This document shows positions 39,641 through 61,274 of a DNA stretch of 64,000 bases, piece by piece. A program made the position numbers and the translations under genes. The notes under the pieces were generated by a model, which saw only the letters and a program-made list of their open reading frames with translations, was not told the origin of the DNA and did no database searches. Position 1 is the stretch's first letter, and each line of letters begins with the position of its first letter. Source of the DNA: Erythrobacter litoralis HTCC2594 (lineage in GTDB: Bacteria > Pseudomonadota > Alphaproteobacteria > Sphingomonadales > Sphingomonadaceae); contig NC_007722.1 of the NCBI RefSeq assembly GCF_000013005.1, positions 2,919,501-2,983,500 of the forward strand, written 5' to 3'.

Positions 39641-42565
39641 ATGCTTTCCGTTGCCAATGTGCGCTCCCCTTCAGCTGCTGCGGCCTATTTTGCCGCTGAT
39701 AATTATTACACCGGCGCTGATGCTGATCGCTCAGGGCTCTGGACTGGGAAGGGGGCCGCGCGCCTTGGTCTTGAGGGCACAGTCAGCGCAAAACAATTCG
39801 ATGCGCTACTGCGCGGAGAATTACCCGGAGGTATCGAGGTTGGTAATGCTGGCCAGTCTCACAGGCCCGGGACAGACCTGACCTTTTCGCTCCCCAAAAG
39901 CTGGTCGCTCCTCGCCCTCGCTGGCGGGGACAAGCGGATAATTGAAGCTTATCGCGAGGCCGTGGTCGAAACATTACGTTGGGCCGAGGCCAACGCAGCG
40001 CAGACCCGGATGGGCAGCAAAGACGGTTACGGAAGGGTCGCAACCGACAACCTCACAATTGGTCTTTTTCAGCATGATACCAACCGCAATCAGGAGCCAA
40101 ACCTGCATTTTCACGCGGTCGTAGCCAACGTCACGCAAGGCCCCGACGGCAAGTGGCGGGCGCTGCGCAATGACAAGCTCTGGTCTTTCAACACGCTGCT
40201 CAATTCGATGACGATGGCCCACTTTCGCATGGCAGTCGAGAAGATGGGATACGAAGCCGGACCGGTCGGCAAGCACGGCAATTTCGAAGCGGCCGGCATC
40301 ACACGCCAGCAGCTCATGGCGTTCTCTTCCCGCCGCGAAGAGGTCCTAGATGCGGTCCGCCAAATCGGCGAAAACACCCCCAAGGCGCGTGACGTCGCCG
40401 TGCTTGCCTCAAGGAAAAGCAAGGAACCCGTGAGAGACCGTGAAGGCCTGCTTGGAGAGTGGAAGCAGAGCGCAGAAGAGGCTAGGCTCGATCTGCAAAC
40501 TATCATCGATGCATCCGAGATGCGGGCAGCAGCCAAGACGATTGCCAACTCAAAGGCTGAAAGCCTTCTCCAGCGCGGCCTGGCAAAGTTGCGAGAATTT
40601 GCGCAGCGGATCAAAGGCGATCCAGCAGACCCCCTGATCCCCGCTCACGTGCTCAAGACAGATGCGCCCACTATCGCGGCTGCGCAGGCTGTAGCCTCTG
40701 CGGTGCGCCACCTCTCCCAGCGCGAAGCGGCTTTTCCGCGCGAAGGTTTGCTCAAAGCAGCATTGGACTTCGGACTACCAACAACAGTGGACCGTGTCGA
40801 AAAACAGGTGAACGCGCTGGTTCGGCAGGGCGCGCTGGTGCGCGGTAAAGGGGCCCAGTCTGGTTGGCTCGCTAGTAAAGAGGCTCTGCAGCTTGAAGGG
40901 GCAATCCTTGCCGGTGTCGACCAGGGACGCGGTGCGGCTGCGCAAATTTTTGAACGCAAGGACGCCGTCACGCGCGTTCAGGCCGTCTCCGCAATCAACC
41001 ACGGCATCACGCTCAATCCGGGTCAGGAAGAAGCGGCAAGCCTCGTACTTTCATCGCGCGACCGGATTGTCGCGATCCAGGGCGTTGCCGGCGCCGGGAA
41101 GAGCAGCGTAATGAAGCCGGTCGCCCAGCTTTTGCGAGAGGAGGGCAAACAAGTGCTGGGTCTCGCGGTCCAGAACACACTCGTTCAGATGCTCGAGCGC
41201 GACACAGGCATCCATTCGATGACTATCGTGCGATTCCTGTCGCAATGGGACCGCTTGCTGCGCGAACCTGGCAACGCAGCTTTGCTGCATGAGGCGAAAA
41301 GCGCGCTCGGTGACCACGTGATTGTTCTCGATGAAGCCTCGATGGTCTCGAACGAAGACAAAGCGAAGCTGGTCCGCCTTGCAAACCTCGCAGAAGTCCA
41401 AAGGCTAGCGCTCGTGGGCGATCGCCAGCAGCTCGGTGCGGTTGATGCAGGCAAACCCTTTGATCTCGTCCAGCAGGCCGGGATCGAGCGCGCGATCATG
41501 GAAGAGAATCTGCGCGGACGCGACTCTGTCTTGCGGCGCGCCCAAGCCGCTGCGCAGGCAGGGCGTATCGATGATGCGCTGAAAGCGCTCGCGCCAACCA
41601 CCATCGAGGCCAAAGGGGACAGCGCAATCGTGGCCGCCGAGCGATGGCTTTCGCTTAGTCCGGCGGAACGCGCGAGGACGTCCATCTATGCTTCCGGACG
41701 CGCCTTGCGCTCCGCCGTCAACGATGCCGTACAGCAAGGGCTCAAGGCGAATGGCGAGCTTGGACAGCGTGCTGCACGACTGACTGTTCACTCTCGGGTC
41801 AACGCGACACGGGAGGAGCTTCGGTACATGGGCACTTACAGCGCCGGCATGGTGCTGAATGTCCGCTCGCGCGACAGTTCCCAGAAACTGTCGAAGGGCG
41901 ACTACACCGTCAAATCCATCGACCACACCCGAAAGCGCGTGATGCTCGAAGACAGGAAGGGACGGAAGCATACATTCAGCCCCACGCGTCTTCGCCCAGG
42001 TGGGAGCGACGACCGTTTCTCATTGTTCGAACGCAAGTCGTTCAGGCTTTTCGAAGGCGACAAGATCCGTTGGACCGACAACGATCATAAGCGCGCACTT
42101 TTCAATGCCGATCAGGCGAAGATTGTAGGGGTCGATGCCAAGGGCGTTACCGTCGAAACCTCAGCGGGCAACGAGCTTCGCTTGGCGCGGGGCGATCCCA
42201 TGTTGAAGCGTCTTGATCTGGCTTATGCCTTGAACGCACATATGGCGCAGGGACTGACCTCTGATCGCGGCATTGCTGTAATGGATAGCCGCGAGCGCAA
42301 TCTTTCTAATCAGCAAACCTTCCTCGTCACCGTGACGAGGCTGCGTGACGGTCTCACATTGGTTGCTGACAGCGCAGAGAAACTCGGCCGGGCAATCAAG
42401 GCCAACAGCGGCGAGAAAAGCTCGGCGCTAGAAGTGACGCAGCGACTGAAGTCAGCGGCGGCAAAAGGCACAGCGCAAGACAAGACCAATGAGAGCGCTG
42501 CGCCAGCAAAGGATCCGCCGGAACTCACAAAGGAGCGAGTAAAGCCCTTTGAAATAGGGATTTGA
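39641..42565 (+). CDS. traI: MobF family conjugative relaxase-helicase
   Basis: A 974-residue TrwC/TraI-like relaxase that nicks oriT, stays bound to the 5' end and unwinds DNA. The N-terminal relaxase domain starts MLSVANVRSPSAAAAYF with candidate nucleophile tyrosines at YYTGADAD and the metal-binding three-His motif in QHDTNRNQEPNLHFHAVVA. The C-terminal SF1 helicase has Walker A IQGVAGAGKSSVMKP and Walker B IVLDEASMVSNEDKA, then LVGDRQQLGAVDAG. It is shorter than F TraI (about 1756), closer to TrwC. It lies 60 bp after traD. Confidence 0.93.
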   Translation: MLSVANVRSPSAAAAYFAADNYYTGADADRSGLWTGKGAARLGLEGTVSAKQFDALLRGELPGGIEVGNAGQSHRPGTDLTFSLPKSWSLLALAGGDKRIIEAYREAVVETLRWAEANAAQTRMGSKDGYGRVATDNLTIGLFQHDTNRNQEPNLHFHAVVANVTQGPDGKWRALRNDKLWSFNTLLNSMTMAHFRMAVEKMGYEAGPVGKHGNFEAAGITRQQLMAFSSRREEVLDAVRQIGENTPKARDVAVLASRKSKEPVRDREGLLGEWKQSAEEARLDLQTIIDASEMRAAAKTIANSKAESLLQRGLAKLREFAQRIKGDPADPLIPAHVLKTDAPTIAAAQAVASAVRHLSQREAAFPREGLLKAALDFGLPTTVDRVEKQVNALVRQGALVRGKGAQSGWLASKEALQLEGAILAGVDQGRGAAAQIFERKDAVTRVQAVSAINHGITLNPGQEEAASLVLSSRDRIVAIQGVAGAGKSSVMKPVAQLLREEGKQVLGLAVQNTLVQMLERDTGIHSMTIVRFLSQWDRLLREPGNAALLHEAKSALGDHVIVLDEASMVSNEDKAKLVRLANLAEVQRLALVGDRQQLGAVDAGKPFDLVQQAGIERAIMEENLRGRDSVLRRAQAAAQAGRIDDALKALAPTTIEAKGDSAIVAAERWLSLSPAERARTSIYASGRALRSAVNDAVQQGLKANGELGQRAARLTVHSRVNATREELRYMGTYSAGMVLNVRSRDSSQKLSKGDYTVKSIDHTRKRVMLEDRKGRKHTFSPTRLRPGGSDDRFSLFERKSFRLFEGDKIRWTDNDHKRALFNADQAKIVGVDAKGVTVETSAGNELRLARGDPMLKRLDLAYALNAHMAQGLTSDRGIAVMDSRERNLSNQQTFLVTVTRLRDGLTLVADSAEKLGRAIKANSGEKSSALEVTQRLKSAAAKGTAQDKTNESAAPAKDPPELTKERVKPFEIGI

Positions 42566-42580
42566 CCTAGCGGGAGTAAT

Positions 42581-43216
42581 TTAAATCGCGCGACCAAACC
42601 AGATCACTCGGCCGACCACCTGGATTTCGGACCGGTCGACATCGTCCCAGCTTGGATAAGCCGCATTGTCGCTGCTGATAGTAATCTTGCGTCCGCCGGG
42701 CTTGAGCGTCACGCGTTTGACCACCAAAGCATCATCGGCGCGCAGAACATAAATACCATCACGCAGCCTTGAACCCTCGTCCGATGCGTCGACCAGCACT
42801 TCGTCGCCATCGCTGAGTGTTGGCTCCATGGAGTCCCCCAAAACATGGATGATCGAGAGGCTGGCGCTCTTTGCCCGCGTCAGCGCGGCGAGCCAACGCT
42901 CATCAAAGCCGAAACGGGTATGTGCCGTTTCACTTTCGGCAATCGCTCCAAAGCCTGCCGACGCATCGACGTTCAGGACAGGGATCTCTATCAAACCGTC
43001 GCGTATCGGTGCGGGCGGGCCGCCAAGGACTTGCTCGTCGACCCCGAAAAAGCTCGCAAGGACGCGCCTGTCATCGTCATCGAGTTTGCGCGGTGAGCCG
43101 CGCTTGATGAATTGCTGGATGTAGGACGAGTTGCGTCCGATCAACCGTGAAATAGCCGAATAGCCGAGCCGTCGCTGCTGGATCAGCCGGTCTAGCTCAT
43201 CTCTGACATGTTCCAT
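42581..43216 (-). CDS. S24/LexA-like repressor peptidase
   Basis: A 211-residue regulator with an N-terminal HTH (GYSAISRLIGRNSSYIQQFI) and a C-terminal S24 peptidase domain. The catalytic Ser is in HVLGDSMEPTLSDGDEV and the Lys in DALVVKRVTL; an Ala-Gly pair in VDASAGFGA is the likely autocleavage site. Such repressors silence an element until RecA/ssDNA damage signalling triggers self-cleavage. It converges on the relaxase gene and is divergent, 112 bp, from a small DNA-binding protein gene. It sits immediately before the BREX island, so it may control the ICE, the island or both. Confidence 0.88.
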   Translation of the reverse strand: MEHVRDELDRLIQQRRLGYSAISRLIGRNSSYIQQFIKRGSPRKLDDDDRRVLASFFGVDEQVLGGPPAPIRDGLIEIPVLNVDASAGFGAIAESETAHTRFGFDERWLAALTRAKSASLSIIHVLGDSMEPTLSDGDEVLVDASDEGSRLRDGIYVLRADDALVVKRVTLKPGGRKITISSDNAAYPSWDDVDRSEIQVVGRVIWFGRAI

Positions 43217-43691: not shown

Positions 43692-44306
43692 ATGAGTGCT
43701 TCGACCAAACAAGATTACAAAATGTCATTTAGCACCGGGGGTCTCTTCCATAACGAAAGCTTGGAAGTCGCGCGTTTGCATCTAGACGGAGAGCCCTGGG
43801 AAGACACGATCCTCAGGGCCATGGAGGAAGGCGCAACCAGCCTGCCGAAGTCAGCATCGAACCGCCGATCCTTGCGCGAAATCTCAAACCGCTTGCTTAC
43901 TCTGACGAGCGAAGAACGAGCCTTCCTTTTGGATGAGGCTGACCGCTCTGAACAACAAGCGCTCCTCTGGATCGCCACTTGCCGAGCCTACCGCTTCATA
44001 CGTGAATTTGCCGTCGAAGTGGTGCGGGATCGATACCTTGGTTACCAACTCGAACTACCCCTTGAAAGCTTTGACATTCTCTTGGATGCAAAGGCGGAGT
44101 GGGATGATGGTTTGGCCAATCTGAACCAATCAACCCGCCTGAAGCTTCGTCAGATCATGTTCCGAATAATGCGTGAGGCCGGAATAGTCTCAGAAGATCA
44201 CCGCATTCAGACGGCTGTCATTTCAACCCGTGTGCGGCACATGATTGAAGCCAACAACCCCGGCGAACTGGCTATATTTCCTAGTGTTCCGGTCGAGGGG
44301 GCATGA
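43692..44306 (+). CDS. brxA: BREX protein BrxA (DUF1819)
   Basis: A 204-residue BrxA of the DUF1819 family, a small helical DNA-binding protein that heads most type 1 BREX operons. FSTGGLFHNESLEVARLHLDG near the N-terminus is characteristic, with ISNRLLTLTSEERAFLLDEAD and LLWIATCRAYRFIREFA downstream. Its exact job in phage exclusion is not settled; deletion effects vary between systems. The brxB start lies 4 bp after its stop. Base composition is lower in GC than the conjugation genes, in line with a separately acquired island. Confidence 0.93.
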   Translation: MSASTKQDYKMSFSTGGLFHNESLEVARLHLDGEPWEDTILRAMEEGATSLPKSASNRRSLREISNRLLTLTSEERAFLLDEADRSEQQALLWIATCRAYRFIREFAVEVVRDRYLGYQLELPLESFDILLDAKAEWDDGLANLNQSTRLKLRQIMFRIMREAGIVSEDHRIQTAVISTRVRHMIEANNPGELAIFPSVPVEGA

Positions 44307-44915: not shown

Positions 44916-47900
44916 ATGGCTCAGCTGCTAAAAGACATTTTTGAAAAGCCAGTTGATCGCGCCATCGATGGCGTCATCAAGGCTGATGATGAGGCTAGCC
45001 TCCGCGTCGAGCTCGACGAATACGTTATTACGGGTGAAATTGGCCAACGGCTCGAGCAATTCCTCGAAGCCTACAACAATTATGACACCTCAAACGGCGT
45101 CTGGATCTCTGGCTTCTTCGGCTCAGGTAAGTCGCACTTGCTAAAGATGTTGGCCTTGTTGCTCGAAAACCGTGAGGTCGACGGAAAAACTGCTCACGAG
45201 ATCTTCGCTGCAAAACTCAAAGACGAGCCGATGCTCGCAGGAGCACTTAACAAGGCCGTTTCCATCCCATCGAAATCAATTTTGTTCAACATCGACCAGA
45301 AGGCCGATGTCATCTCGAAGACGGATGTCGATGCGCTTCTATCCGTGTTTCAGAAAGTCTTCGATGAAGCTTGCGGATTCTACGGCAAGCAACCTCATAT
45401 CGCGCAATTTGAACGCGATCTGCAAAGCCGTGGCCAATTTGAGGCTTTCAAAGAGACTTTCCGTAGCGCTGCTGGAAAGGACTGGGAGCACGGAAGAGAA
45501 CAGGCACTGCTCGAAGCCAAGAATATCGCGACCGCGTTTGCCGCAGCAACTGGTGGCGACCCATGGGGTGCGAAAGACATTTTGAGCCAATACCGAAAGG
45601 ACACTCGCGTCTCGATTGAGGACTTCGCAGACACTGTGAAAGCCTGGATTGATGATCAACCAAAAGGTTTTCGACTGAACTTCTTCGTTGACGAAGTCGG
45701 CCAATATATTGCCGACAACGTAAAACTGATGACCAATCTGCAGACCATCGCAGAAAGCCTCAACACCAAGTGCGAGGGCCAGGCATGGATTATCGTAACG
45801 GCGCAGCAGGACATGGCGTCCGTGATCGGCGATATGACACAGCGGCAAGAGAATGACTTCTCCAAAATTCAAGCTCGCTTCGGCAACCGCATGCCGCTGA
45901 ATTCGGCCGATGTCGCGGAAGTCATCCAGCGTCGGCTTCTCGCCAAGACTTCTGAAGGCCAAGTGACACTCGGCAACCTGCATGATCGCGAAGAAAACAA
46001 TCTCAAGACACTTTTCGATTTTGCGGACGGGTCGCAGAAGCTCAAAAACTACCGTGATCGCGACCACTTCATATCGAGCTATCCGTTCCCTCCCTATCAG
46101 TACGATCTCTTTCAAATGGCGATCACGTCATTGTCGGAGCACAACGCATTTGAAGGCAAGCACAGCTCTGTTGGTGAGCGGTCGATGCTGGGCGTCTTCC
46201 AAGAGGTAGCAAAGAAGCTGAAAGACCAGGAGGTTGGTGGGCTAGCCACCTTTGACCTCATGTTTGAAGGGATACGCACTGCGCTGAAGTCTTCGGTGCA
46301 ACAGAGCATTCAGATCGCTGAAAGGAACCTGGACGACCCGTTTGCCGTTCGAGTCCTAAAATCCTTGTTCCTCGTCAAATATGTCAAAGGCTTCAAACCG
46401 TCGGTTCGCAACATCGCAATTCTGCTTTTGTCGGAGTTTGAGGCGGACCAGACGGCAATGCGCCGCAAGATTGAGGAAGCGCTAAGCCGTTTAGAGAGAG
46501 AAACCTATATCCAGCGCAACGGCGAGGTCTATGAGTTCCTGACGAATGAAGAGAAGGATGTCGAAGCCGAAATCAAGGCTCTCGACATCGATCCGTCCGA
46601 GCTCTCGAAAGAACTCGAAACTCTCGCATTCGATACCATTCTACGTCACCGTAAGATCAAACATCTCGCGACAAATAACGAATACCCCTTCACCCGAAAG
46701 CTGGATGATCACGCTCTAGGACGCGAATACGAATTGGCTATCAACCTCGTTTCACCTTTGAGTGATGAGGTTGAAAGCTCAGATGGCATTCGCATGAAAA
46801 CTATGTCTCGCGAAGAGCTTGCGGTCGCCATGAATCCAGATGCGACCTTCGTTCGTGACCTGATCCTGTTCAAGCAAACCGACAAGTTCATTCGCCAGTC
46901 GCGCAGCGGCTCACCGCAGCCAGGCCGCGACCGCATTGTGGCGGGAAAAGGGGAGCAAAACAGTCGCCGCCTAAAAGACATCGAAATGCAGCTCCGCAAA
47001 TTGATGGGAAGCGCTCGCCTGTTCGTTAGAGGTGACGAACTCGAGATCGGCGGTGAAGATGCTCAAGAGCGCATAGCCAAGGCGTTCCAATCGCTGGTCG
47101 ACAAGGTTTACACCAACCTCCCGATGCTGCGCGGTGTCAGCTATACCGAGGCCGATATCAACAAGGCGGTGCAAGCTGAAAGCGGGCTCTTTGGATCTGA
47201 CGGCACACGGATCAATGAGGCCGAGCAAGACGTCCTCAGCTTTATCAATGCGCAGGCACGCAACGGTGTAAAAGTCTCCGTCAAATATCTGGCTGATCGC
47301 TTTACGTCGAAACCTTACGGCTGGCCAATAAATGCGGTTCTTTGCCTAGCAAGTAGTCTGGTCGCGAGGGGCAAGATCGAAGCGCGACTGGACAGCGCTG
47401 TGAAGGAGGGACTGGATCTCGCCAAGGCGTTGAACAACAGCCACGCGCTTCCGAACATATTACTTACCCCACAAACGGAATTCACTGCCTCCGAAATTCG
47501 CCGAGCTAAGGAGCTCTATCAGGAACTCTTTGCACACCCCTCCTCGGGAACCGACGCGCGCAGTTTGGGTGCAGAATGGACTGCAAGCATTGATGTGCTT
47601 GAAGCCGAAGTGGACGAACTTGTTCGCCAATCGCACCGCTACCCTTTCCTGACTTCGCTCGAGCCACTCAATGAGCTGCTGCGGACCATGAAGAGCAAAC
47701 CGGCGAACTGGTATATTTCCGAGGCGCCTAAGCGCGAGGATGATCTTCTGAACGCGAAGGAGGATATCCTCGACAAGGTGAAGTCCTTCATGGGCGGCGC
47801 ACAAAAGGACATCTACGACGATGCCCGCGATATGCTCGCCGGCCAATCTGCCAACATCGACTATGTCGATCCTGATGCTGGGGCGAAGTTACGCGCTGCA

Positions 47901-48434
47901 TTGGAGGATCCGAACTGTTTCAAAGGATCGACGATCCAGAACCTCAAGTCCGATCTTTTTGATCTGAAAAACAAGGTCGAACTCAAGGTGCTTGAGGAGC
48001 GCAAAGCTGTCATCGCAGAGGTAGAAGACGTTTCAGCCAAGATCGCACAAATGCCGGACTTCCAAGCGCTCGATGCCGATCAACAGACGCGGATCACCGC
48101 ACGCATCGATAGCCACAAAGAAGGCCTCGATACAGTCACTTTGATTCCCGTATTGCGGGATCGCGCCAATGGTGCACGCACCAACCTACTATCAGACGTT
48201 GTCACTGAACTGGATAGTCTCGCGCGCCCAGTACCGGCGACTCAGCCGCAGCCAGGCCAATCCGACGGGCCAGCGCCCGCACCGCAGGCTCCCACAACGA
48301 TCCTTGCCTCTCAGTTGAAGGTCGCAGCTCCGAAAACGCTGCTGACCGATGAGGCCGACGTTGATGAGTACCTTGATGCGATGAAAAGTGCCCTGCTGAA
48401 CGAAATCCGCGCGGGTAAGAAAGTTATCGTATAA
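44916..48434 (+). CDS. brxC: BREX P-loop ATPase BrxC
   Basis: A 1172-residue BrxC, the large ATPase of type 1 BREX (family DUF6079/PglY-related). The P-loop is SGFFGSGKSHLLKML at residues 65-79, preceded by VITGEIGQRLEQFLEAYNNYD, and NFFVDEVGQYIADNVKLMTN supplies the Walker B-like acidic pair. It is needed for both host methylation and defence in systems studied. A Pro/Gln-rich linker (ATQPQPGQSDGPAPAPQAP) near residue 1105 separates a short C-terminal tail. Its stop overlaps the next start (TAATGA), implying translational coupling to the ATPase inserted in the operon. Confidence 0.94.
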   Translation: MAQLLKDIFEKPVDRAIDGVIKADDEASLRVELDEYVITGEIGQRLEQFLEAYNNYDTSNGVWISGFFGSGKSHLLKMLALLLENREVDGKTAHEIFAAKLKDEPMLAGALNKAVSIPSKSILFNIDQKADVISKTDVDALLSVFQKVFDEACGFYGKQPHIAQFERDLQSRGQFEAFKETFRSAAGKDWEHGREQALLEAKNIATAFAAATGGDPWGAKDILSQYRKDTRVSIEDFADTVKAWIDDQPKGFRLNFFVDEVGQYIADNVKLMTNLQTIAESLNTKCEGQAWIIVTAQQDMASVIGDMTQRQENDFSKIQARFGNRMPLNSADVAEVIQRRLLAKTSEGQVTLGNLHDREENNLKTLFDFADGSQKLKNYRDRDHFISSYPFPPYQYDLFQMAITSLSEHNAFEGKHSSVGERSMLGVFQEVAKKLKDQEVGGLATFDLMFEGIRTALKSSVQQSIQIAERNLDDPFAVRVLKSLFLVKYVKGFKPSVRNIAILLLSEFEADQTAMRRKIEEALSRLERETYIQRNGEVYEFLTNEEKDVEAEIKALDIDPSELSKELETLAFDTILRHRKIKHLATNNEYPFTRKLDDHALGREYELAINLVSPLSDEVESSDGIRMKTMSREELAVAMNPDATFVRDLILFKQTDKFIRQSRSGSPQPGRDRIVAGKGEQNSRRLKDIEMQLRKLMGSARLFVRGDELEIGGEDAQERIAKAFQSLVDKVYTNLPMLRGVSYTEADINKAVQAESGLFGSDGTRINEAEQDVLSFINAQARNGVKVSVKYLADRFTSKPYGWPINAVLCLASSLVARGKIEARLDSAVKEGLDLAKALNNSHALPNILLTPQTEFTASEIRRAKELYQELFAHPSSGTDARSLGAEWTASIDVLEAEVDELVRQSHRYPFLTSLEPLNELLRTMKSKPANWYISEAPKREDDLLNAKEDILDKVKSFMGGAQKDIYDDARDMLAGQSANIDYVDPDAGAKLRAALEDPNCFKGSTIQNLKSDLFDLKNKVELKVLEERKAVIAEVEDVSAKIAQMPDFQALDADQQTRITARIDSHKEGLDTVTLIPVLRDRANGARTNLLSDVVTELDSLARPVPATQPQPGQSDGPAPAPQAPTTILASQLKVAAPKTLLTDEADVDEYLDAMKSALLNEIRAGKKVIV

Positions 48435-49621
48435 TGATTTTCAAGGTTGAATTCGAGAATTTCACCGCATTCGAGAAACTGAACCTTTCCCTTTCGCCTC
48501 GAATCAACGTAATCATTGGGTCCAACGGGACCGGAAAGACGCACCTTCTTAAAGCCATCTATGGATTGAATCTGATCGCTGATGGTAAATTTCTGGAGCG
48601 TTCAAAAGATGCGTTTGCGGCCACTGCGTCGGGCAAATTTCTCAGGATCTTTGCGACCGAAGACAACAAAGTGGGGATGCTCGCCTCGAAGAGGGCAAGC
48701 GGACCGACAAAGCTTCGTTCTGTAAGCAGTGATGATTCCGTTTCTAGCATCACTTTCAGTGGCCGATCGCAGTATTTTGAAATTACCTCATCGCGGGCAG
48801 TTTCTAAATCTAGTTCTAAACCCGTCTATATTCCGACGAAAGAAGTGCTTTCGCTGGTTCGAGGTATTCGCCACCCGGATCATGATCGAGCGACGGTCGA
48901 AATGATTTTCGACGATAGTTACCTCGATCTCGCAGAGTTTCTCGTGGAACCGGGCTTCGATGAAAGCAGTTCTGACTTTCGCGCAGACCCTAGGTCGTAC
49001 AATGTAGTTCGCAAACTAGTTGATCTCGTTGGCGGACGTTATACTTTGCACGACGACGGTGGTTTTCACTTTCAACCTGGTAAGTATGAAGAGGCTGCCA
49101 GATCGAAAAACGATCCCTTACGATCCGATTCACAGACCGCACGCGCCTACCAAGACTCCAAGAGAATACGCTTTCGTCCGGAGGGTGGGCCAACTTTTTC
49201 GACTGCGATGACCGCTGAGGGATATAGAAAGATTGGCGTGCTCCATCGATTGCTGAGCAATGGCTCGATCAATCTCAAGGAATCCGGCACTCTGCTTTGG
49301 GACGAGCCGGAGGCAAACCTAAACCCGAGACTGATGAAGGAGCTGGTTCAAGCCATACTTGAACTGTCGCGAAACGGTCAGCAGATCATTCTCGCAACCC
49401 ATGACTACGTGCTTTTGAAATGGCTGGATTTGCTAATGGATAAAGTGGGTAAGGAAGACCACGTTCGATTTCATGTTCTACAAAGGCAAAGTCGCGATGG
49501 ACCAATTTCCCTTTATTCGACGGAAGAATACGAGCAGCTTGTAACCACAGGCATATCTGAAACATTTGGAAAGCTATACGAGGCCGAAATCGAACGCTCA
49601 GTGAAGGGTATTGAGCTATGA
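48434..49621 (+). CDS. AAA family ATPase inserted in the BREX operon
   Basis: A 395-residue SMC/ABC-type ATPase (AAA_21/AAA_15-like). The Walker A is INVIIGSNGTGKTHLLKAIYG (residues ~22-42). Walker B is LLWDEPEANLNPRLMKELV and the His switch is QIILATHDYVLLKWLD, the arrangement of OLD/RecF-like defence ATPases. No Toprim or nuclease domain is visible in it, so an effector must be separate. It overlaps brxC by one base and the next small gene by 4 bp (ATGA). It is not a standard BREX component; similar ATPase plus effector pairs (PARIS AriA-AriB, Septu PtuA-PtuB) are stand-alone defence systems. Confidence 0.88.
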   Translation: MIFKVEFENFTAFEKLNLSLSPRINVIIGSNGTGKTHLLKAIYGLNLIADGKFLERSKDAFAATASGKFLRIFATEDNKVGMLASKRASGPTKLRSVSSDDSVSSITFSGRSQYFEITSSRAVSKSSSKPVYIPTKEVLSLVRGIRHPDHDRATVEMIFDDSYLDLAEFLVEPGFDESSSDFRADPRSYNVVRKLVDLVGGRYTLHDDGGFHFQPGKYEEAARSKNDPLRSDSQTARAYQDSKRIRFRPEGGPTFSTAMTAEGYRKIGVLHRLLSNGSINLKESGTLLWDEPEANLNPRLMKELVQAILELSRNGQQIILATHDYVLLKWLDLLMDKVGKEDHVRFHVLQRQSRDGPISLYSTEEYEQLVTTGISETFGKLYEAEIERSVKGIEL

Positions 49622-50118
49622 CGACCGTTCAGGAATTTGATCTCGAATTGTCTTTTCCAGGAGCAAAGAGCATTGTCCATTTCGACGACGATCAATACCA
49701 TGGGGGCAGTACGGTTCAGCGCGTTGATTTCATAGCCGAATATGATGACCAGAGCCTATTTATCGAGATCAAAGATCCCGACATTCCGACGGCGCAGAAT
49801 CTCGGTGCCTTCGTCCAAAAACTGAATTCTGGGAAATTGGTACAAAGCCTAGCTGGGAAATTTAGGGATACCCTCTTCTTTCGATCAGCCCAGGGTAAAA
49901 ACGACCGTTCAATCCGGTATCTAGTTTTGCTCTCAATGAATAGCTTGGACGATGCATTGCTAATAGCAAAGCAAGACGAGCTACGAAAAGCCATTCCAAT
50001 TAGTCATGCTGACTGGTCAAAAAACTGCGCTGCAAGCTGTATCGTTCTGAACTTTGAGCAATGGCGCAGACAATTCGGTGAAGCCTCGCTCCGACGAATT
50101 AGCGAGGCAACAGACTGA
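49618..50118 (+). CDS. PD-(D/E)xK nuclease-like partner of the inserted ATPase
   Basis: A 166-residue protein with a short nuclease-like signature: Asp37 in QRVDFIAEYDD, then Glu50-x-Lys52 in SLFIEIKDPDIP, a D-x12-ExK spacing usual for PD-(D/E)xK folds. A C-terminal LVLLSMNSLDDALLIAKQDE region would be helical. I recognise no named family; it differs from the DUF4435/Toprim AriB and from HNH PtuB. It overlaps the ATPase by 4 bp and pglX by one base, so it is made together with both. A nuclease effector is the best guess, but the fold is inferred from one motif. Confidence 0.65.
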   Translation: MTTVQEFDLELSFPGAKSIVHFDDDQYHGGSTVQRVDFIAEYDDQSLFIEIKDPDIPTAQNLGAFVQKLNSGKLVQSLAGKFRDTLFFRSAQGKNDRSIRYLVLLSMNSLDDALLIAKQDELRKAIPISHADWSKNCAASCIVLNFEQWRRQFGEASLRRISEATD

Positions 50119-53100
50119 TGGATACCACAAAGCTCAGGAAATTTGCTCAATTTGCGCGGAGTACCTTGATTGATCAAGTTACCGTAAGGCTGGAAGCCGT
50201 CTTGAGCGACGGCTCGTCGGCTCGGCGTGAATACCCAAGGGCCTTCAAGAAGCTTGAGACATTAGTTGGCAAACTCGGACGAGAGCAAGTTGTCGAAAAG
50301 GTCGCCTACACCTGGTTCAATCGCTTCACTGCTTTGAGGTACATGGATGTCAACGGTCTCTCCCCGGTTCGCGTTGTGTCTCCGTCCGTCGGTCAATTTC
50401 AACCGGAAATACTCTCGGATGCGAAGTCGGGGAGTATCAATGAGCAAATCGTCCCCGAAATCACTCGAGATGAAGTCCTCAGTCTACTGGATGGTCGCAC
50501 CTCCAGCCCCGACCCACAGGGTGAGGCTTACCGACTGCTTGTCGTTGCCGCGTGCAACTACTGGCACGACGCTATGCCTTTTATGTTCGAGCGCATCGAC
50601 GATTACGCCGAGCTTCTAATGCCTTCGGACCTCCAGTCCAACGCTTCGATACTCGCATACCTTCGTGAGGCAATGACACCTGACGTTTGTGAAGACGTCG
50701 AGATCATCGGCTGGCTCTACCAGTTTTATATCTCAGAGAAGAAGGATCAGGTCTTCGCGGGCCTCAAGAAGAACCAGAAGATCACGGCGGAGAACATTCC
50801 GGCCGCAACGCAGCTCTTCACCCCGCATTGGATCGTTCGCTATCTGGTCGAGAACTCGCTGGGGCGGCTCTGGCTGCTCAACAATCCGCACAGCGGGCTG
50901 GCGGCCAAGATGGACTACTACATCGCGCCTGAAGAACCCGAAACGGATTTCCTGCGCATCACCAAGCCTGAGGAGATCCGCATCTGCGATCCCGCCGCAG
51001 GCTCGGGGCATATGCTGACCTATGCCTTCGACCTGCTCTACGCGATCTACGAGGAAGAGGGATACGACCCGACCGAGATCCCCGCATTGATCCTATCGCA
51101 TAACCTGACCGGCGTGGAGATTGACGACCGTGCAGGCGCGCTGGCGGCCTTTGCGCTGGCGATGAAGGCGGCGGCGCGGCTGGGACGGCGGCGGTTTTTG
51201 CGGATGGAAGCTAAGCCAGACATCTGCGTGTTGCAGAACGTAGCCTTTAAAGAGGCCGAGTTGCAGGACGTGACCGCCGTGGTGGGCAAGGATCTGTTCA
51301 CCGATGAGTTGCGCGAGACGTTGAGGCAGTTTGAGCAGGCCAAGAACTTCGGCTCTCTGATCTTGCCGAGACTACGCGACCCGGCCGAGGCACTAAGGGT
51401 GGTCAATGCGCGGGATTTTGACGGAGATTTGTTGCTGAAAGAGGTGCAGCAGCGCGTCATCGCCGTCCTGCGCATGGCCGAGGCGCTTTCGCCGCAGTAT
51501 CATGTGGTGGTGGCCAACCCGCCTTACATGGGTTCAGGGGGCATGAACCCAGAAATGACCAGCTTCGCGCGTGTGAACTTCCCAGACAGTCGCAGCGATT
51601 TGTATGCAATGTTCACCGAGCGCTGCCTATCTCTTAATGTCGTTTACGGCATGTCTGCGCTTGTCACCATTCAAAACTGGATGTTCATTTCTTCCTTTGA
51701 GAAGCTGCGCGACAAGTTAATTTCACGGTACCACATTTCAGATTTGCTGCAAATCGGGTTCAATAGTTTCCCTGAGTTGAACTCAAAAGTCGTACAGGCT
51801 GTCGCATTCGTGATAAAGAATGGAAAATCAAAATACCCAGGGCGATATATTAATCTGAACGACGCCGCTCAGTCAGCCAACAAAAGAGAAATACTCGAAC
51901 TAAAGTTGAAAGAGAACGATGTATTTCTGACGGAAGACGAAAAGTTCTCATCTATCCCAGGGTCACCTATCGGTTACTGGCTCTCGGACTCGGTGTTCAA
52001 GGTTTTTGAAAATCTACCTTCGCTTGCAAGCGTTGCTCCGACAAAACAGGGCCTTGCTACCGGCGACAACGAACAGTTTCTTCGGCAGTGGTACGAAGTC
52101 AGCTCTTCTGAAATTGGACAGGGGACACTTTCGTCAAAAGAGACGGAGGATCGGCCAGAGCGCTGGTATCCCTGCAACAAGGGTGGGGAATTCAGAAAAT
52201 GGTTCGGAAACAACGCCATTGTTGTTGACTGGCAACATTCAGGAAAACGTATAAAATCCTTCAAGGACAACAATGGAAAGCTTCGGTCCAGACCTCAGAA
52301 TGAGAATTTCTATTTTAAACCCGGGATAACATGGTCGGCAATCTCAAGTGGCGGGCTTTCGATGCGGTTATCTCCATTGGGTTCCATGTTCGAAACGAAA
52401 GGCGCAATGTCCTTTCCGGAAGAAGAGAACATTTTCCCGGCTTTGTCCTTCGCCAACACCAAAGTCGTAAACCGCTTGCTGCTGGCTCTATCACCAACGT
52501 TGGATTTCCATGAAGGCCCAATTGGTCGGTTGCCTTATTTGCGCGTCTCTGGCGCAGCGGACATTGGACGACGTTGTTCCGAACTGGCTCGCTCCGACTG
52601 GGACGCCTTCGAAACCTCGTGGGATTTTACCACGCTTCCGCTGCTCTCACCCGATCATCGGGGCGAGAGGCTGGCGAGCAGCTACGCCACGCTCCGCGCC
52701 CATTGGCAGTCCATGACGGACGAGATGAAAGCGCTGGAGGAAGAGAACAACCGCATCTTCATCAACGCCTATGGTCTGCAAGACGAGCTGACCCCCGAGG
52801 TGCCGATCGAGGAGATCACCCTCACCTGCAACCCCGCCTATCGCTATGCCGTTAAGAGCTCCGAGGAGGACCGCGAAACCCGCCTGCGCGCCGAGACCAT
52901 GGCCGAGTTCTTGCATTATGCCGTGGGCTGCATGTTCGGCCGCTACAGCCTCGAAGAACCGGGCCTGATTCTCGCCAATCAAGGCGAGACACTGGCCGAC
53001 TACCTCGACCGCGTGCCTGACCCCAGCTTCATGCCGGACGAAGACAACGTCATCCCTGTGCTAGACGAAAACTGGTTCCCCGACGACATCACCGAACGCT

Positions 53101-53612
53101 TCCGCCTGTTCCTGCGCGCGACCTTCGGCGAGCAGCATTTCCGCGAGAACCTGAAGTTCATCGAGGACAGCCTTGGCAAGGACATCCGCAAGTATTTCAC
53201 TAAGGATTTTTACGCCGACCACGTGAAGCGCTACAAGAAGCGCCCGATCTACTGGATGGTCTCCTCCCCCAAAGGCACTTTCAACGTGCTGATCTACATG
53301 CACCGTTATCGGGGCGATACGGTGTCAGTCATCCTCAACGATTACCTGCGCGAGTTTATCACCAAGCTAGAGGGAGAGCGCACACGGCTGGAGAAGCTCT
53401 CCGACGATCCTGCCGCTAGCCAAGGCCAGAAGACCAAAGCGCTGAAGGATGCGGCCAAAGTCGCCAAGCAGATCGATGAGCTGAACGAATGGGAACGCGA
53501 CGTGATCTTCCCACTTGCGCAGCGCAAGATCGAGATCGATCTCGATGACGGGGTAAAAGCAAACTATCCGAAGTTCGGTTCTGCCTTGAAGAAGATCGCT
53601 GGGTTGAGCTGA
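50118..53612 (+). CDS. pglX: BREX adenine-specific DNA methyltransferase PglX
   Basis: A 1164-residue PglX (BrxX), the N6-adenine methyltransferase that marks a non-palindromic site in the host and is also required for exclusion. Motif I is DPAAGSGHML (from residue 291) and the catalytic motif NPPY is at residues 467-470. TPHWIVRYLVENSLGRLWLL precedes them, as in the family. The region after NPPY (about residues 490-815) is the likely target-recognition domain and is clearly more AT-rich than the GC-rich blocks on either side. pglZ starts on the stop codon (overlap of one base). Confidence 0.94.
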   Translation: MDTTKLRKFAQFARSTLIDQVTVRLEAVLSDGSSARREYPRAFKKLETLVGKLGREQVVEKVAYTWFNRFTALRYMDVNGLSPVRVVSPSVGQFQPEILSDAKSGSINEQIVPEITRDEVLSLLDGRTSSPDPQGEAYRLLVVAACNYWHDAMPFMFERIDDYAELLMPSDLQSNASILAYLREAMTPDVCEDVEIIGWLYQFYISEKKDQVFAGLKKNQKITAENIPAATQLFTPHWIVRYLVENSLGRLWLLNNPHSGLAAKMDYYIAPEEPETDFLRITKPEEIRICDPAAGSGHMLTYAFDLLYAIYEEEGYDPTEIPALILSHNLTGVEIDDRAGALAAFALAMKAAARLGRRRFLRMEAKPDICVLQNVAFKEAELQDVTAVVGKDLFTDELRETLRQFEQAKNFGSLILPRLRDPAEALRVVNARDFDGDLLLKEVQQRVIAVLRMAEALSPQYHVVVANPPYMGSGGMNPEMTSFARVNFPDSRSDLYAMFTERCLSLNVVYGMSALVTIQNWMFISSFEKLRDKLISRYHISDLLQIGFNSFPELNSKVVQAVAFVIKNGKSKYPGRYINLNDAAQSANKREILELKLKENDVFLTEDEKFSSIPGSPIGYWLSDSVFKVFENLPSLASVAPTKQGLATGDNEQFLRQWYEVSSSEIGQGTLSSKETEDRPERWYPCNKGGEFRKWFGNNAIVVDWQHSGKRIKSFKDNNGKLRSRPQNENFYFKPGITWSAISSGGLSMRLSPLGSMFETKGAMSFPEEENIFPALSFANTKVVNRLLLALSPTLDFHEGPIGRLPYLRVSGAADIGRRCSELARSDWDAFETSWDFTTLPLLSPDHRGERLASSYATLRAHWQSMTDEMKALEEENNRIFINAYGLQDELTPEVPIEEITLTCNPAYRYAVKSSEEDRETRLRAETMAEFLHYAVGCMFGRYSLEEPGLILANQGETLADYLDRVPDPSFMPDEDNVIPVLDENWFPDDITERFRLFLRATFGEQHFRENLKFIEDSLGKDIRKYFTKDFYADHVKRYKKRPIYWMVSSPKGTFNVLIYMHRYRGDTVSVILNDYLREFITKLEGERTRLEKLSDDPAASQGQKTKALKDAAKVAKQIDELNEWERDVIFPLAQRKIEIDLDDGVKANYPKFGSALKKIAGLS

Positions 53613-56107
53613 TGTCAGACCGTATCAAAACGGGTCTTAAGCTGCTCTTCGACGAGCACCGGATAGTGTTCTGGTACGATGCAGCGCGCGACATGCGGGG
53701 TGAGTTTGACGCAGTTAAACTGCCAGGCGTGCAGAAGATCGAGATCGCGAATAACGAGTTCGCTCTGAAATACCGGATGCTGCGGCAGGAGCCTCGCCAG
53801 AAGTTTCTGGTGTTTCACGACGGCCCCGCGCCTGAAATGGACGACAATTGGCTGCTGGATCTGTATTTCGCCAGTGGTGTGTTCAAAGCCGATCAGGCGG
53901 CAATCTGGCTTGCAGAACTGGGCCTGCCGCTGCAGTTTGAAGACGTGGTGCGCAACCACATGGAGTTTTACCGCTCCAAAGTCCGCATCGAAGCGCTGAA
54001 GCAGTCGGTCACACCTTCAGATACAAAGAGCGAGGTGCTGCGCCGTATGATCGCCGTATGCGCAGGTGCTCAGGGTGCCTTGGATACGGTCATCGAGGAG
54101 CTGCTGGCAGAGCTCGCAGACGAGCGAGACGACGCCATGCGTCTGATTGAACGCTCCGGCCTGACAGATTTCTTCTGGAAGCAGGTTGAGAATGCCTACG
54201 GTTACACGAGCGAAGAGCCCGATTTCGAAGACTTCGCGATAACACTGTTCCAGTCCTGTTATGCCCGCGCCTTAGGTGAGGATGGCAAGCTGAATGGCGA
54301 GGCCTTGCTCGTTTTCCGCCGCTGGAAGAACAATCGCCTATGGTCAACCGCATTTGAAACGCTGAGCGGTGAGTATCAGGACCTCCTGAAAATTCCTGAG
54401 GACACCCAAGACCGCGACATCAAGACTTTGGGTGCCATTGATCACTTCGAGGAGATCGATCGCCATATCATCCGCTCTCTCGTACATGAGATGGCAAGTC
54501 AGACGGTGTCATCAGCTGAGGTGTTGAAAGCCGTTCGAGAGCGGAGGCAGAGCCATTGGTACCCGACCTACGAGGATATCTACGAAGCCATCCGCCATGC
54601 CACAGAATTCCAGCAAGCCTTGGCTGAGGCGAACTTGACCATGACCTCCCCCGATGAGGGGGTGAAGCGCTATGTTTCCCACTGGTATAGGATCGACCAG
54701 CTCTACCGCAAATTCATCTATCATATGCAGAAGAGCGGCCAGGCCTCGCTGCTCAGCGCGCTCTTCGAGAGCGTCGAAAACCGGTATACGACTAACTTCC
54801 TTCAAGCTGTGAACGATGCTTGGCAAGATCACATTGCTGAGCTCAAGGACTGGAAGATCTCGGGCTTCGCGCACCAGACGGACTTTTACGTGGATCAGGC
54901 CGCAGAATTCCGCCGCCGAGATCAGAAGGTGGTGGTGATTATCTCGGACGCCTTGCGCTATGAGGTTGCAGAAGAAGCCTTGCGCGAGATCCGGAAACTG
55001 AACCGGTTCGACGCCGAGCTCGAACCGATGATCTCTGCTCTGCCTAGCTACACGCAGCTCGGCATGGCGGCGCTTTTACCCAACAAAGATCTAACGCTGG
55101 AAGCGGACGCAAGTGTGTCTTCTTTCAGTCTGCCCACTCAGGGAACCGTCAATCGCGAAAAGGTTCTGGGAATGGGACGATCGGGAGATCGAGCCAAAGC
55201 CATGAAAGCTGATGACTTCATGAGCTTGAAAGCGGATCAGGGCAAAGAGATCTTCCGCGATCATGACATTCTTTATCTCTATCACAACCGGATCGATAAC
55301 ATTGGCGATAAGCTCGCCACCGAGGAGCACACGGCCGAAGCTGCCCAGGACGCCATCGAGGATCTCACCAAGCTTGTCCGCAAACTCACAACAGCCAACT
55401 TCTCAAACATTTTGGTGACGGCCGATCACGGCTTTATCTATCAACACCGCGCCTTGGATGAGACCGAATTCTCGATTGCGGATCCAGATGGCGCCGAAAT
55501 TCTCGTCAAAAACCGCCGCTTCGTCATCGGCAGCGATCTTCAAGAGACTTCAGGTATGAAGAAATTCTCTTCAGCCGATCTAGGGCTGGCAGGAGATCTG
55601 GACGTGCTTCTGCCTAACTCGATCAATCGTATGCGCGTCAAAGGATCGGGCAGTCGTTTCGTGCATGGCGGAGCTACGCTTCAGGAAATCGTCATTCCTG
55701 TGATCCGTGTCGGGAAACAACGCGACGCGGATGTCGAGAAGGTTGAAGTTCAGATCATCGTTGCCGGAAAGAGCTTGATTTCGTCCGGACAAACTTCGGT
55801 CACTCTCTATCAGGCTCAGCCCGTCTCGGAAAAGCAGCAGCAACGGGACCTTCTTGCTGGCATTTACGCCTCGGACGGCACACTCATCTCTGATGAGCAT
55901 GCTCTCACCTTCGACTACACTTCGCAAAATGCACGCGAACGCGAGCTGCCACTCAAGTTCCTTCTTTCCCGGGACGCGGACCGCTTCAACAATCAAGACG
56001 TTTTGCTCAAGCTTCGCGAGCGCGTCGGCAAGACAAGCCATTATGAAGATTACACAAGTCACCGCTTCCAATTGCGCCGTGGCATATCGACAGATTTCGA
56101 CTTTTAG
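53612..56107 (+). CDS. pglZ: BREX alkaline-phosphatase-like protein PglZ
   Basis: An 831-residue PglZ (BrxZ) with the alkaline-phosphatase-superfamily domain: VVVIISDALRYEVAEEALREI holds the metal-binding Asp446, ALPSYTQLGMAALLPN follows, and NILVTADHGFIYQHRAL supplies the second metal site. PglZ is the signature protein of BREX and is needed for defence; phosphatase or nuclease substrates are still debated. The N-terminal 400 residues are helical and contact other BREX subunits in studied systems. Its start overlaps the pglX stop, and brxL begins 8 bp after its end. Confidence 0.94.
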   Translation: MSDRIKTGLKLLFDEHRIVFWYDAARDMRGEFDAVKLPGVQKIEIANNEFALKYRMLRQEPRQKFLVFHDGPAPEMDDNWLLDLYFASGVFKADQAAIWLAELGLPLQFEDVVRNHMEFYRSKVRIEALKQSVTPSDTKSEVLRRMIAVCAGAQGALDTVIEELLAELADERDDAMRLIERSGLTDFFWKQVENAYGYTSEEPDFEDFAITLFQSCYARALGEDGKLNGEALLVFRRWKNNRLWSTAFETLSGEYQDLLKIPEDTQDRDIKTLGAIDHFEEIDRHIIRSLVHEMASQTVSSAEVLKAVRERRQSHWYPTYEDIYEAIRHATEFQQALAEANLTMTSPDEGVKRYVSHWYRIDQLYRKFIYHMQKSGQASLLSALFESVENRYTTNFLQAVNDAWQDHIAELKDWKISGFAHQTDFYVDQAAEFRRRDQKVVVIISDALRYEVAEEALREIRKLNRFDAELEPMISALPSYTQLGMAALLPNKDLTLEADASVSSFSLPTQGTVNREKVLGMGRSGDRAKAMKADDFMSLKADQGKEIFRDHDILYLYHNRIDNIGDKLATEEHTAEAAQDAIEDLTKLVRKLTTANFSNILVTADHGFIYQHRALDETEFSIADPDGAEILVKNRRFVIGSDLQETSGMKKFSSADLGLAGDLDVLLPNSINRMRVKGSGSRFVHGGATLQEIVIPVIRVGKQRDADVEKVEVQIIVAGKSLISSGQTSVTLYQAQPVSEKQQQRDLLAGIYASDGTLISDEHALTFDYTSQNARERELPLKFLLSRDADRFNNQDVLLKLRERVGKTSHYEDYTSHRFQLRRGISTDFDF

Positions 56108-59470: not shown

Positions 59471-60766
59471 CTAGATGGGCCTGAACCCGTTGAGAGCCTG
59501 CTGCGCCATCGATTGGGGCACTCCTGCTTCACTGGTCACATCAGCCCATTGAGCAATGGCGGACTGGATATCCGAAATGATTGCTTTGGTTTCGCCAATT
59601 TTGAGATCTGCAAACCGACCAAACGATATCAGGTCGTCCAGCTCGAAATTGTCTGTCTTCCCTGAAAGCGACATCTGGTGCTCGTTGGTCCAGTCCCCGT
59701 CAGGATTATAGGCATAAACAACATCGTAGGCAGGCGAGAGGCTCCAACGCCCAGCTCGGTCCATAAGAAAAGCGATGTTCTTGGTGTGGTCGTCCTGGTT
59801 GCGGATGAAGATGTTGAAAAACGCTCGTCGCACCTGCTCTTTGATGGCATCACGACCAAGCCCAAGCATGCGGATGGTCTCAATCGCTTGCTCGTAGCTG
59901 TACGCACGAGCGAGGTTGAAATCGAAGTGACGCATCGCGCAAAGCGACTGCATGTGAAGCTTCTTACCGTCGAGCGTACGGTCGAACCGCTGCGTCATGA
60001 AATGGGCTCGCCCGCCTTCTTCGTGCAGGCGGGAACGGGCCATGTCGATGCCGGCCTTCCTTGCTAGCAGATAACATGCGTATTCAAGACGCCCGAAGCC
60101 CATGGGGTCGGCGAGCTCCTTGTCGGCATTGCCCGATACGCCATCGAATTTGACAAGCCATTGGGTGTAGCCGGGACCTGCTGTCAGCTGGCCAGAATGG
60201 AATTCGCCCGTTTCCTCGTTCCAGGCGAGAACGGCCTTGGCGCGCGCGCCACCGGCGGAGGTGCCGACGCGCAGGATTTCCTGAAGAGCATGATGATCAT
60301 CATCGCCCTTGAGGACGCCAGAGAGCTCTTCTCTTGCAGCAAGTACTCGATTGGCCAGGTCAACAAGCGGCGCAATGTCGACGGGTCCGCCCTGTTCGCG
60401 TCGCTCGCCTGTCGATGGCTCGAACTCAAGCGCGCCCATGCCTCTGCGACCGGTGTAGCAGAGCCGTTCAACCGGATCGAAGCTGTCAGTTGTTCGGCCC
60501 TGTTCAGCGAGCCATCGGTTGATGAGGGCGTTGCCGAACTTATCGGGTAGACTGTCAGCGAGCATTCCCGGCAGACCCTTGAAGGTCTCATAGTTCAGTG
60601 CAGGAAAGTCATAAACGCCGCCTCGAAGCGGCATAGTGAGCGGCGCCACTTCGATACCGCTTCGGGCGAACTCTGGGGTATACTCGAATACTCCGACATC
60701 GCGGTTCTCATCCCACAGAATTGCGCCGATCTGCCGTCCCCACAGGTTTACAACGGCGCGGCTCAT
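59471..60766 (-). CDS. hipA: HipA family serine/threonine kinase toxin
   Basis: A 431-residue HipA toxin, a kinase that in E. coli phosphorylates glutamyl-tRNA synthetase and triggers persistence. The N-subdomain (VVNLWGRQIGAILWDENRDVG) and GMLADSLPDKFGNALINRWL are family-typical. Also present are the phosphorylatable Ser loop GTSAGGARAKAVLAW, the catalytic loop FIRNQDDHTKNIAFLMD and the metal-binding SLSPAYDVVYAYN. The length is close to E. coli HipA (440). Its start overlaps the hipB stop by 4 bp. It converges on the DUF4268 gene at the end of the BREX island. Confidence 0.94.
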   Translation of the reverse strand: MSRAVVNLWGRQIGAILWDENRDVGVFEYTPEFARSGIEVAPLTMPLRGGVYDFPALNYETFKGLPGMLADSLPDKFGNALINRWLAEQGRTTDSFDPVERLCYTGRRGMGALEFEPSTGERREQGGPVDIAPLVDLANRVLAAREELSGVLKGDDDHHALQEILRVGTSAGGARAKAVLAWNEETGEFHSGQLTAGPGYTQWLVKFDGVSGNADKELADPMGFGRLEYACYLLARKAGIDMARSRLHEEGGRAHFMTQRFDRTLDGKKLHMQSLCAMRHFDFNLARAYSYEQAIETIRMLGLGRDAIKEQVRRAFFNIFIRNQDDHTKNIAFLMDRAGRWSLSPAYDVVYAYNPDGDWTNEHQMSLSGKTDNFELDDLISFGRFADLKIGETKAIISDIQSAIAQWADVTSEAGVPQSMAQQALNGFRPI

Positions 60767-61122
60767 GGGGCTTCGTCATCCCAACTCCAGTCTTCACTTG
60801 GCTCGTTTGTTGATGATTTCCGCACTCGCTGCCGCGCTCTGCCCGTGTCCGATCGCGGGTCAAGCGGGCTCAACCTAGCGTCGGGTACGATATCGAGAAG
60901 GCGATCTTCGATATCGAGCGCCCGCATGATCCTGGCAAGGCTATCGATTGTGCCGCCGTTGCCTGATTCCAAGCGGGAAAGTGTCGAACGCGAAATTCCC
61001 GCTAGTTCTGCAAGCTCGGCCTGTTTGAGATTGCGTGATATACGATAGGCTTCGAGCTGTTGCCCAAAATCGGACAGGAGCACCGATAACGGACGCAAGT
61101 CTGATGAGTTGTAATGCATCAT
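60763..61122 (-). CDS. hipB: HipB-like XRE antitoxin
   Basis: A 119-residue antitoxin and repressor with a central XRE helix-turn-helix: YRISRNLKQAELAELAGISRSTLSRLESG (about residues 31-59), followed by IDSLARIMRALDIEDRLLDI. The Lys/Arg-rich tail (RSDTGRARQRVRKS) ends in SWDDEAP, whose C-terminal Trp region may dock into HipA as in E. coli HipB. It binds HipA and the promoter upstream. It is translated just before hipA with ATGA overlap. Confidence 0.9.
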   Translation of the reverse strand: MMHYNSSDLRPLSVLLSDFGQQLEAYRISRNLKQAELAELAGISRSTLSRLESGNGGTIDSLARIMRALDIEDRLLDIVPDARLSPLDPRSDTGRARQRVRKSSTNEPSEDWSWDDEAP

Positions 61123-61248: not shown

Positions 61249-61274
61249 TTATAACTGAGTTAAGGAGTCCGGGT

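Follow-up and report, generated by a model that had tools for sequence, protein, structure and literature searches.

HEC-02, an ATPase and putative nuclease pair in type 1 BREX operons, with signs of repeated exchange of the ATPase tail together with its partner gene

Defense modules that combine an ATPase with an effector have been described within operons of the bacteriophage exclusion (BREX) system. PARIS, a pair of the ATPase AriA and the DUF4435 protein AriB, is embedded in type 1 BREX of Salmonella between pglX and pglZ, according to the passages on its gene order in PMC9009780 and PMC11341690. Pairs of an OLD-ABC ATPase and a PD-(D/E)XK protein in BREX are described as backup effectors by Rakesh and Krishnan (2026, PMC12839542), whose section on these modules gives 594 taxa for OLD-ABC with HNH, PD-(D/E)XK, or PIN, taken together. 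Given these two precedents, the general kind of pair considered here is already known. It is found in a stretch of 64,000 nucleotides from Erythrobacter litoralis HTCC2594 (NC_007722.1, positions 2,919,501 to 2,983,500), referred to as the window, where two additional genes sit between brxC and pglX of a type 1 BREX operon. These encode an ABC-type ATPase of 395 amino acids and, following it, a protein of 166 amino acids:

44916..48434, forward strand: brxC, upstream neighbor of the pair (NF033441, 1236.8 bits)
48434..49621, forward strand: HEC-02A, OLD/Rad50-like ABC ATPase, 395 amino acids (PADLOC PDLC04213, E 1.1e-97, residues 1-390; AAA_21, 6.5e-19)
49475..49618, forward strand: residues 348-395 of HEC-02A, its exchangeable tail at the C-terminus (type 1) and the presumed docking site of HEC-02B as judged from change points and the drop in DNA identity
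49618..50118, forward strand: HEC-02B, putative PD-(D/E)XK nuclease, 166 amino acids, type 1 (PADLOC PDLC04220, E 1.7e-61, residues 1-164)
50118..53612, forward strand: pglX methyltransferase, downstream neighbor of the pair (NF033452 BREX-1 PglX, 1458.6 bits)

The first-pass annotation had reported the two extra genes with overlapping junctions, and both the reading frames and the junctions hold: brxC and the ATPase gene share one nucleotide (TAATGA), the ATPase gene and the small gene four (ATGA), and the small gene and pglX one (TGATG). Its view that the two genes form an ATPase-effector module of two components, placed within BREX, is likewise supported. It had listed an already named system among the outcomes that would refute its reading, and this outcome applies: the adjacent, same-strand genes match the PADLOC models HEC-02A and HEC-02B over their full length, and the pair is the named candidate system HEC-02. 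HEC denotes Hma-embedded candidate (PMC12988326, in its account of the name); the name refers to Hma as the host, whereas the pair in the window sits among BREX type 1 genes and not in Hma. Literature searches of open-licence papers found in print neither a HEC-02 mechanism nor an exchange of its tail or effector. The OLD-ABC backup modules of PMC12839542 are the same class of pair with the same suggested role, and the HEC-02 family, the placement between brxC and pglX, and an exchangeable tail are not set apart in section 35 of that paper.

The logic of the pair had also been likened to that of PARIS or Septu; membership of either system is rejected because the partner protein does not match. 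PARIS resembles the window in placing an ATPase and an effector inside a type 1 BREX operon, in the portions of the Salmonella reports that describe it. However, its partner is a DUF4435 protein, and HEC-02B matches neither the DUF4435 nor the AriB model and has no Pfam match at E <=0.1, while HEC-02A of the window reaches 326 bits with the HEC-02A model and 76 with that of AriA. In the case of Septu, the ATPase of retron Ec78 (PtuA) is among the best Protein Data Bank (PDB) matches of the ATPase profile, at E 1.2e-10 but over the N-terminal ~42 residues only. PtuB is an HNH protein; HEC-02B has a D..ExK motif, matches no PtuB model, and all 10 PADLOC families that match it at E <=0.1 are HEC-02B. 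PrrC and RloC are ABC-ATPase sentinel nucleases that accompany restriction systems, PrrC within the hsd operon. They are single-chain anticodon nucleases, in contrast to the two proteins and the different motif of the window.

HEC-02A tails and their HEC-02B partners

The identity of the ATPase core follows that of BrxC, and the identity of the tail follows that of the nuclease. Over 27 BREX-1 loci, pairwise identity of the core correlates with that of brxC (r 0.81) and pairwise identity of the tail with that of HEC-02B (r 0.73). Once the core is controlled for, the tail and HEC-02B retain a partial r of 0.68, with 0 of 2000 permutations as high; once the tail is controlled for, the core and HEC-02B retain 0.07. 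The operon backbone was represented in these comparisons by brxB, brxC, and pglX, brxA being left out because it is missing in at least one locus (L066).

Tails fall into two types, which cover 118 of the 119 best-listed relatives of the ATPase; the protein records are the best 120 of 4207 matches, with the window's own copy included. Altogether 129 of 166 ATPase sequences could be typed, made up of those 118 records and 11 of 47 loci, and neither type was seen in record P0106, which ends short at the tail, or in 36 distant loci. Tail type and nuclease type agree in all 35 pairs matched by contig (18 type 1 with type 1, 17 type 2 with type 2), where 0.41 matches would be expected by chance. 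Records were paired by longest contigs of equal size, which is a proxy, from 112 ATPase records on contigs of at least ~2 kb and 57 type 1 plus 57 type 2 nuclease records, the type 2 list typed down to P0278 among the best 120 of 431.

Closely related operons locate the boundary of this association. Loci L065 and L077 are 97% identical in brxC, 96% in pglZ, and 89% in the ATPase, but only 31% in HEC-02B; likewise, the ATPase of L066 is 80% identical to those of L067 and L003, with HEC-02B at 31% and 28%. In segments of 60 nucleotides, DNA identity between L065 and L077 is 87-100% up to about ATPase codon 340, 32-58% through almost all of HEC-02B, and ~93% from the start of pglX, with recovery ~15 nucleotides before the HEC-02B stop codon. 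The values for L066 and L067 are 77-95% before, 33-53% within, and at least 83% after the block of tail and nuclease. Identity falls at about nucleotide 1020-1035 of the ATPase gene in both operon pairs. Because it drops at about codon 340 and stays low through HEC-02B, the last ~50 residues of the ATPase appear to travel with HEC-02B. The compared segment contains only one other strongly divergent stretch, inside pglX, presumably the recognition region.

The same boundary is found at the protein level when each of 53 type 2 proteins is compared with its closest type 1 counterpart by core. Tail identity is 29-43% where core identity is 72-97% (at least 88% in 33 of the 53), and in 13 of the 53 the nearest core of all is type 1 rather than type 2. 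Among the 50 proteins whose cores match at 75% or more, the median change point is residue 348; it lies at 344-348 in 46 and at 328-336 in the other four. A core tree of 117 rows, labeled with a narrower tail pattern that leaves four type 2 proteins unlabeled, requires 17 changes of tail type, at least 7 of them on strongly supported branches; as 43 of its 114 inner forks are weak, the figure of 17 tends to be too high and that of 7 is the cautious one. In a second core tree of 103 rows, labeled with a widened pattern, 20 changes are counted and a single origin is rejected (p-AU, the p value of the approximately unbiased test, 8.6e-43). HEC-02A looks chimeric, and these patterns suggest that the tail and HEC-02B have been exchanged repeatedly, as a block, under a conserved ATPase core. 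It is this repeated exchange that makes HEC-02 worth following, the pair itself being already named.

Proposed mechanism and its alternatives

Several defense systems share the question of how an OLD-type ATPase retains its effector and licenses it. The residues on which the reading of the two proteins depends are as follows:

48518..48541, forward strand: Walker A of HEC-02A, GSNGTGKT, residues 29-36 (G29, N31, G34, and K35 invariant in 69 sequences)
49301..49306, forward strand: Walker B of HEC-02A, D290-E291 (invariant in 69 sequences)
49400..49402, forward strand: switch histidine of HEC-02A, H323 within ATHD (invariant in 69 sequences)
49726..49728, forward strand: D37 of HEC-02B, putative metal ligand (D in 248/251)
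49765..49773, forward strand: E50-x-K52 of HEC-02B, putative catalytic motif (E in 251/251, K in 249/251)

HEC-02A had been described as an ATPase with Walker A, Walker B, and a histidine switch and with no effector domain, and this description is borne out: the motif columns are invariant in the alignment of 69 sequences (window included), and a Pfam scan found no fused effector domain. Its PDB relatives include the retron Ec78 ATPase/PtuA, Rad50, OLD, and AriA, so that both motifs and kinship are those of an OLD-type ABC ATPase.

The D37, E50-x-K52 motif noticed earlier in the small protein is present as well. All three residues are retained in 246 of 251 aligned HEC-02B sequences (both types, window included), well above chance, which gives the protein the D..(D/E)xK motif of PD-(D/E)XK nucleases. 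Profile matches at E 0.04-0.16, below the threshold of significance and each in 1-8 members, include DpnII, SfsA, SinI, SduA_C, pPIWI_RE REase, and NERD; they are mingled with unrelated families, some scoring equally well or better. Conservation of the motif together with these sub-threshold matches makes HEC-02B a probable PD-(D/E)XK nuclease. The two types are only ~28% identical and are nevertheless homologous by profile comparison (hhalign 99.8%, E 6.5e-29), which rules out type 2 as an unrelated protein. Single-sequence searches, which differ in reach, found 431 relatives with the type 2 query and 85 with type 1. D37 is replaced by N in the copy of L076 (3445-3978) and by E in the copy of L058 (11012-11530), itself a weak match; these copies are perhaps inactive or altered.

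On balance, HEC-02 is probably an optional sensor-nuclease module within BREX, in which a tail-docked HEC-02B is licensed by an OLD-type ATPase and the tail and nuclease form an exchanged cartridge. HEC-02A would sense the state of infection, by analogy most likely phage interference aimed at the BREX apparatus or its methylase, and would hold HEC-02B, the small putative PD-(D/E)XK nuclease, by its last ~50 residues. An ATP-dependent rearrangement of HEC-02A would then release or activate HEC-02B, with a second and probably self-damaging layer of defense as the outcome. Exchange of tail and nuclease would presumably proceed via recombination in the conserved ATPase core and at the start of pglX. 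Docking, nuclease activity, trigger, and outcome are all inferred. Whether HEC-02A is in addition a natural adaptor, with a BREX-linked sensor core and a cartridge of tail plus next gene swapped over and over at almost the same codon, thereby coupling a single sensor to different nucleases, is a proposal with about as much for it as against it.

Several observations weigh against this mechanism. The tail and HEC-02B are adjacent, and linkage alone could therefore preserve their association. When all 47 loci are taken and the tail is controlled for, the core still shows some association with HEC-02B (partial r 0.27, against 0.65 for the tail); when the core is controlled for over the 27 loci, weak associations with brxC persist for both the tail (0.33) and HEC-02B (0.24). 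BREX inhibition as the trigger is an analogy only, and the trigger need not be BREX at all, since in 15 of 51 loci no BREX or restriction-modification gene was recognized among the neighbors examined. The Salmonella system is itself a warning, because Ocr and an Ocr homologue failed to activate the PARIS embedded in BREX, as stated in the relevant part of PMC11341690, where deletion of ariA or ariB is also given as raising defense ~10-fold against phage TB34. Profile and PDB searches gave no significant PD-(D/E)XK match to HEC-02B; of the PDB profile searches with the two nuclease types, one gave no match and the other five unrelated weak matches.

The main rival to tail docking is that the tail does not bind HEC-02B and that the tail-nuclease association results from adjacency, with recombination limited to the conserved flanks. 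The four nucleotides shared by the two genes are consistent with this, as is the low identity of the two tail types, at which homologous crossover inside the tails is unlikely. Yet the block in both operon pairs compared by DNA stops where HEC-02B gives way to pglX, whereas at its other end it enters HEC-02A by ~50 codons, an asymmetry that linkage alone does not predict and that disfavors it. In addition, the association persists over 27 diverse BREX-1 loci with the core controlled for; linkage without docking is considered unlikely. It is highly doubtful that HEC-02B is instead an inhibitor, antitoxin, or binding protein with a decayed fold. The missing fold match and the loss of one of D, E, and K in 5 of the 251 sequences would fit such a protein, but retention of all three in the other 246, across two types of such low identity, would not.

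Two further readings concern the relation of the pair to BREX, which the first-pass annotation had considered as possibly that of a BREX-specific subunit pair. HEC-02 is an optional, seamlessly placed pair that recurs in BREX-1 and BREX-3-like loci. It is present in 7 of 16 BrxC loci over two samples, counted with two candidates scored per genome and the second sample centered on a genome known to carry the pair. Among 397 genomes of the window's family, eight BrxC loci were found, five with the pair (the window being one of them) and three without; among 397 genomes of a second order, there were eight comparable loci, two with and six without, a partial one of 30% identity (L087) being left out of the count. 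The nine loci that lack the pair have pglX directly after brxC, with an overlap of one or four nucleotides in eight of them; in L082, pglX is over-extended when read from its first start codon. Presence in only 7 of 16 excludes a standard BREX-1 subunit, and homologues outside BREX likewise speak against a BREX-specific component. That the proteins are accessory subunits assisting PglX or BrxC in restriction, with no separate effector layer, is quite unlikely. It would agree with the position of the pair directly upstream of pglX in 27 of 27 BREX-1 loci, with the tracking of brxC by the ATPase core, and with overlaps of 1-4 nucleotides in 15 tabulated loci (14 at brxC/ATPase, 14 at ATPase/HEC-02B, and 9 at HEC-02B/pglX, from first start codons, some over-extended). 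It agrees poorly with the nine uninterrupted operons; with homologues that are found in BREX-3-like loci, next to a type IIG methylase, or surrounded by housekeeping genes; and with L005, whose brxC is 88% identical to that of the window but whose HEC-02A is 59% identical. An independent two-gene system that uses the BREX operon only for expression and transport, a reading to which a low probability is given, would explain why the pair is optional and why it occurs in 15 of 51 loci with no BREX or restriction-modification gene recognized among the neighbors examined. On the other side, the pair repeatedly adjoins a methylase gene in BREX-1 and BREX-3-like loci and its core co-varies with brxC, though shared operon ancestry can also yield such co-variation.

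If the adaptor proposal is true, HEC-02A would be an immune sensor of modular build whose docking tail is portable and whose effectors can be swapped. Operons recombined in nature, which differ mainly in the tail-nuclease block and in a portion of pglX, are in effect a domain-swap experiment already made; they indicate a docking segment and allow predictions as to which chimeras ought to function. Selection for exchange, if it operates, would suggest the nuclease, and not the sensor, as the object of phage pressure. BREX operons would in that case evolve via two islands open to exchange, one being the presumed PglX recognition region and the other the tail-nuclease cartridge.

Other loci and the surroundings of the window operon

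The 51 distinct HEC-02A loci comprise the window, 31 genome contigs, 10 whole-genome loci, 2 plasmids, and 7 contigs labeled viral, with L054 counted together with L053, and L059 with L060, as duplicates whose layouts match. Tallies of the ATPase searches are lower bounds, because only 4 candidates were scored per genome and genomes found by the nuclease profile were missed, and the share of BREX among the loci should not be read as a population frequency because the search profiles are rich in BREX members. In 27 loci, the window included, the pair belongs to a BREX-1 operon and immediately precedes a pglX gene. It lies between brxC and pglX in 26 of these, with one further gene between brxC and the pair in L011, L012, L014, and L015; the order in L005 is brxC-pglX-pair-pglX. 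In L028, the upstream part of which is cut off, the pair is upstream of pglZ and brxL. The genome-contig scan placed 17 of 17 loci at >=50% identity (L001-L017) in BREX-1 and saw none of 14 loci at <=38% identity between brxC and pglX. Phage and viral collections gave few matches, some of them BREX operons in contigs labeled viral, and a plasmid search with the type 2 nuclease gave no plasmids beyond the two already found.

Five loci (L056, L068, L018, L026, and L020) are BREX-3-like, judged against what we take to be the BREX-3 gene order. L056 and L068 have pglXI, the pair, the brxH helicase gene, and pglZ, and in L068 brxA comes next; in L018, brxC and a Schlafen gene are followed by pglXI, two small open reading frames, the pair, and pglZ; L026 has brxH downstream of the pair; and L020 is grouped here only by a layout resembling that of L018. 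Three loci are beside other restriction genes, namely a type IIG methylase gene in L019, an HsdR gene on the opposite strand in L021, and, in L031, where the pair is broken, a mad2-like gene that we take to encode a methylase. No BREX or restriction-modification gene was recognized among the neighbors in 15 loci; all were searched with the nine operon proteins of the window, and 13 of the 15 had one to three neighbors scanned with Pfam or PADLOC, L030 and L057 none. One of the 15, L058, has an AbiEi gene nearby, and some HEC-02A homologues lie among housekeeping genes. HEC-02B was not detected in L057 and scores weakly in L058 and L060.

Some operons with the pair hold further additions. Two pglX genes flank the pair in L005 (4792-14024) and follow it in tandem in L052 (11757-18887) and L053 (11678-19016); such an operon may carry two recognition specificities. 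L011 (6943-8712), L006 (14007-15230), and L009 (14208-15941) have more inserted genes, located either in the interval from brxC to the pair or in that from pglX to pglZ, with weak matches to SIR2/pAgo-associated profiles. The Schlafen-AlbA_2 gene of L018 (2577-4931), between brxC and pglXI, makes two embedded modules in one operon with HEC-02.

The genome of the window is a single contig of 3.05 Mb. Its type 1 BREX operon is complete, with brxA, brxB, brxC, pglX, pglZ, and brxL in canonical order as identified with Pfam, PADLOC, and NCBIfam, the last of which has no model for brxA or brxB. The genes beyond brxC and pglX are:

43692-44306, forward strand: brxA (Pfam BrxA, 5.4e-53)
start uncertain, ends 44910, forward strand: brxB (Pfam BrxB, 1.1e-41)
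53612-56107, forward strand: pglZ (TIGR02687, above cut-off)
56116-58197, forward strand: brxL (TIGR02688, above cut-off)

The operon is flanked (39641-43216 and 59471-63974) by a TrwC relaxase gene, an S24 repressor-like gene, hipA with a helix-turn-helix partner, and TraG_N, and these surrounding genes probably belong to a conjugative element. The brxL product has a C-terminal phospholipase D-like domain (MIT_C, residues 543-689, 57742-58182) and is probably the BrxL-HKD fusion described in part of PMC12839542. Immediately 3' of brxL, the gene at 58231-59367 matches PADLOC PDC-S11 over its full length and also DUF4268, with weak nuclease-like matches at its N-terminus; it is a second candidate defense gene, at the end of the operon.

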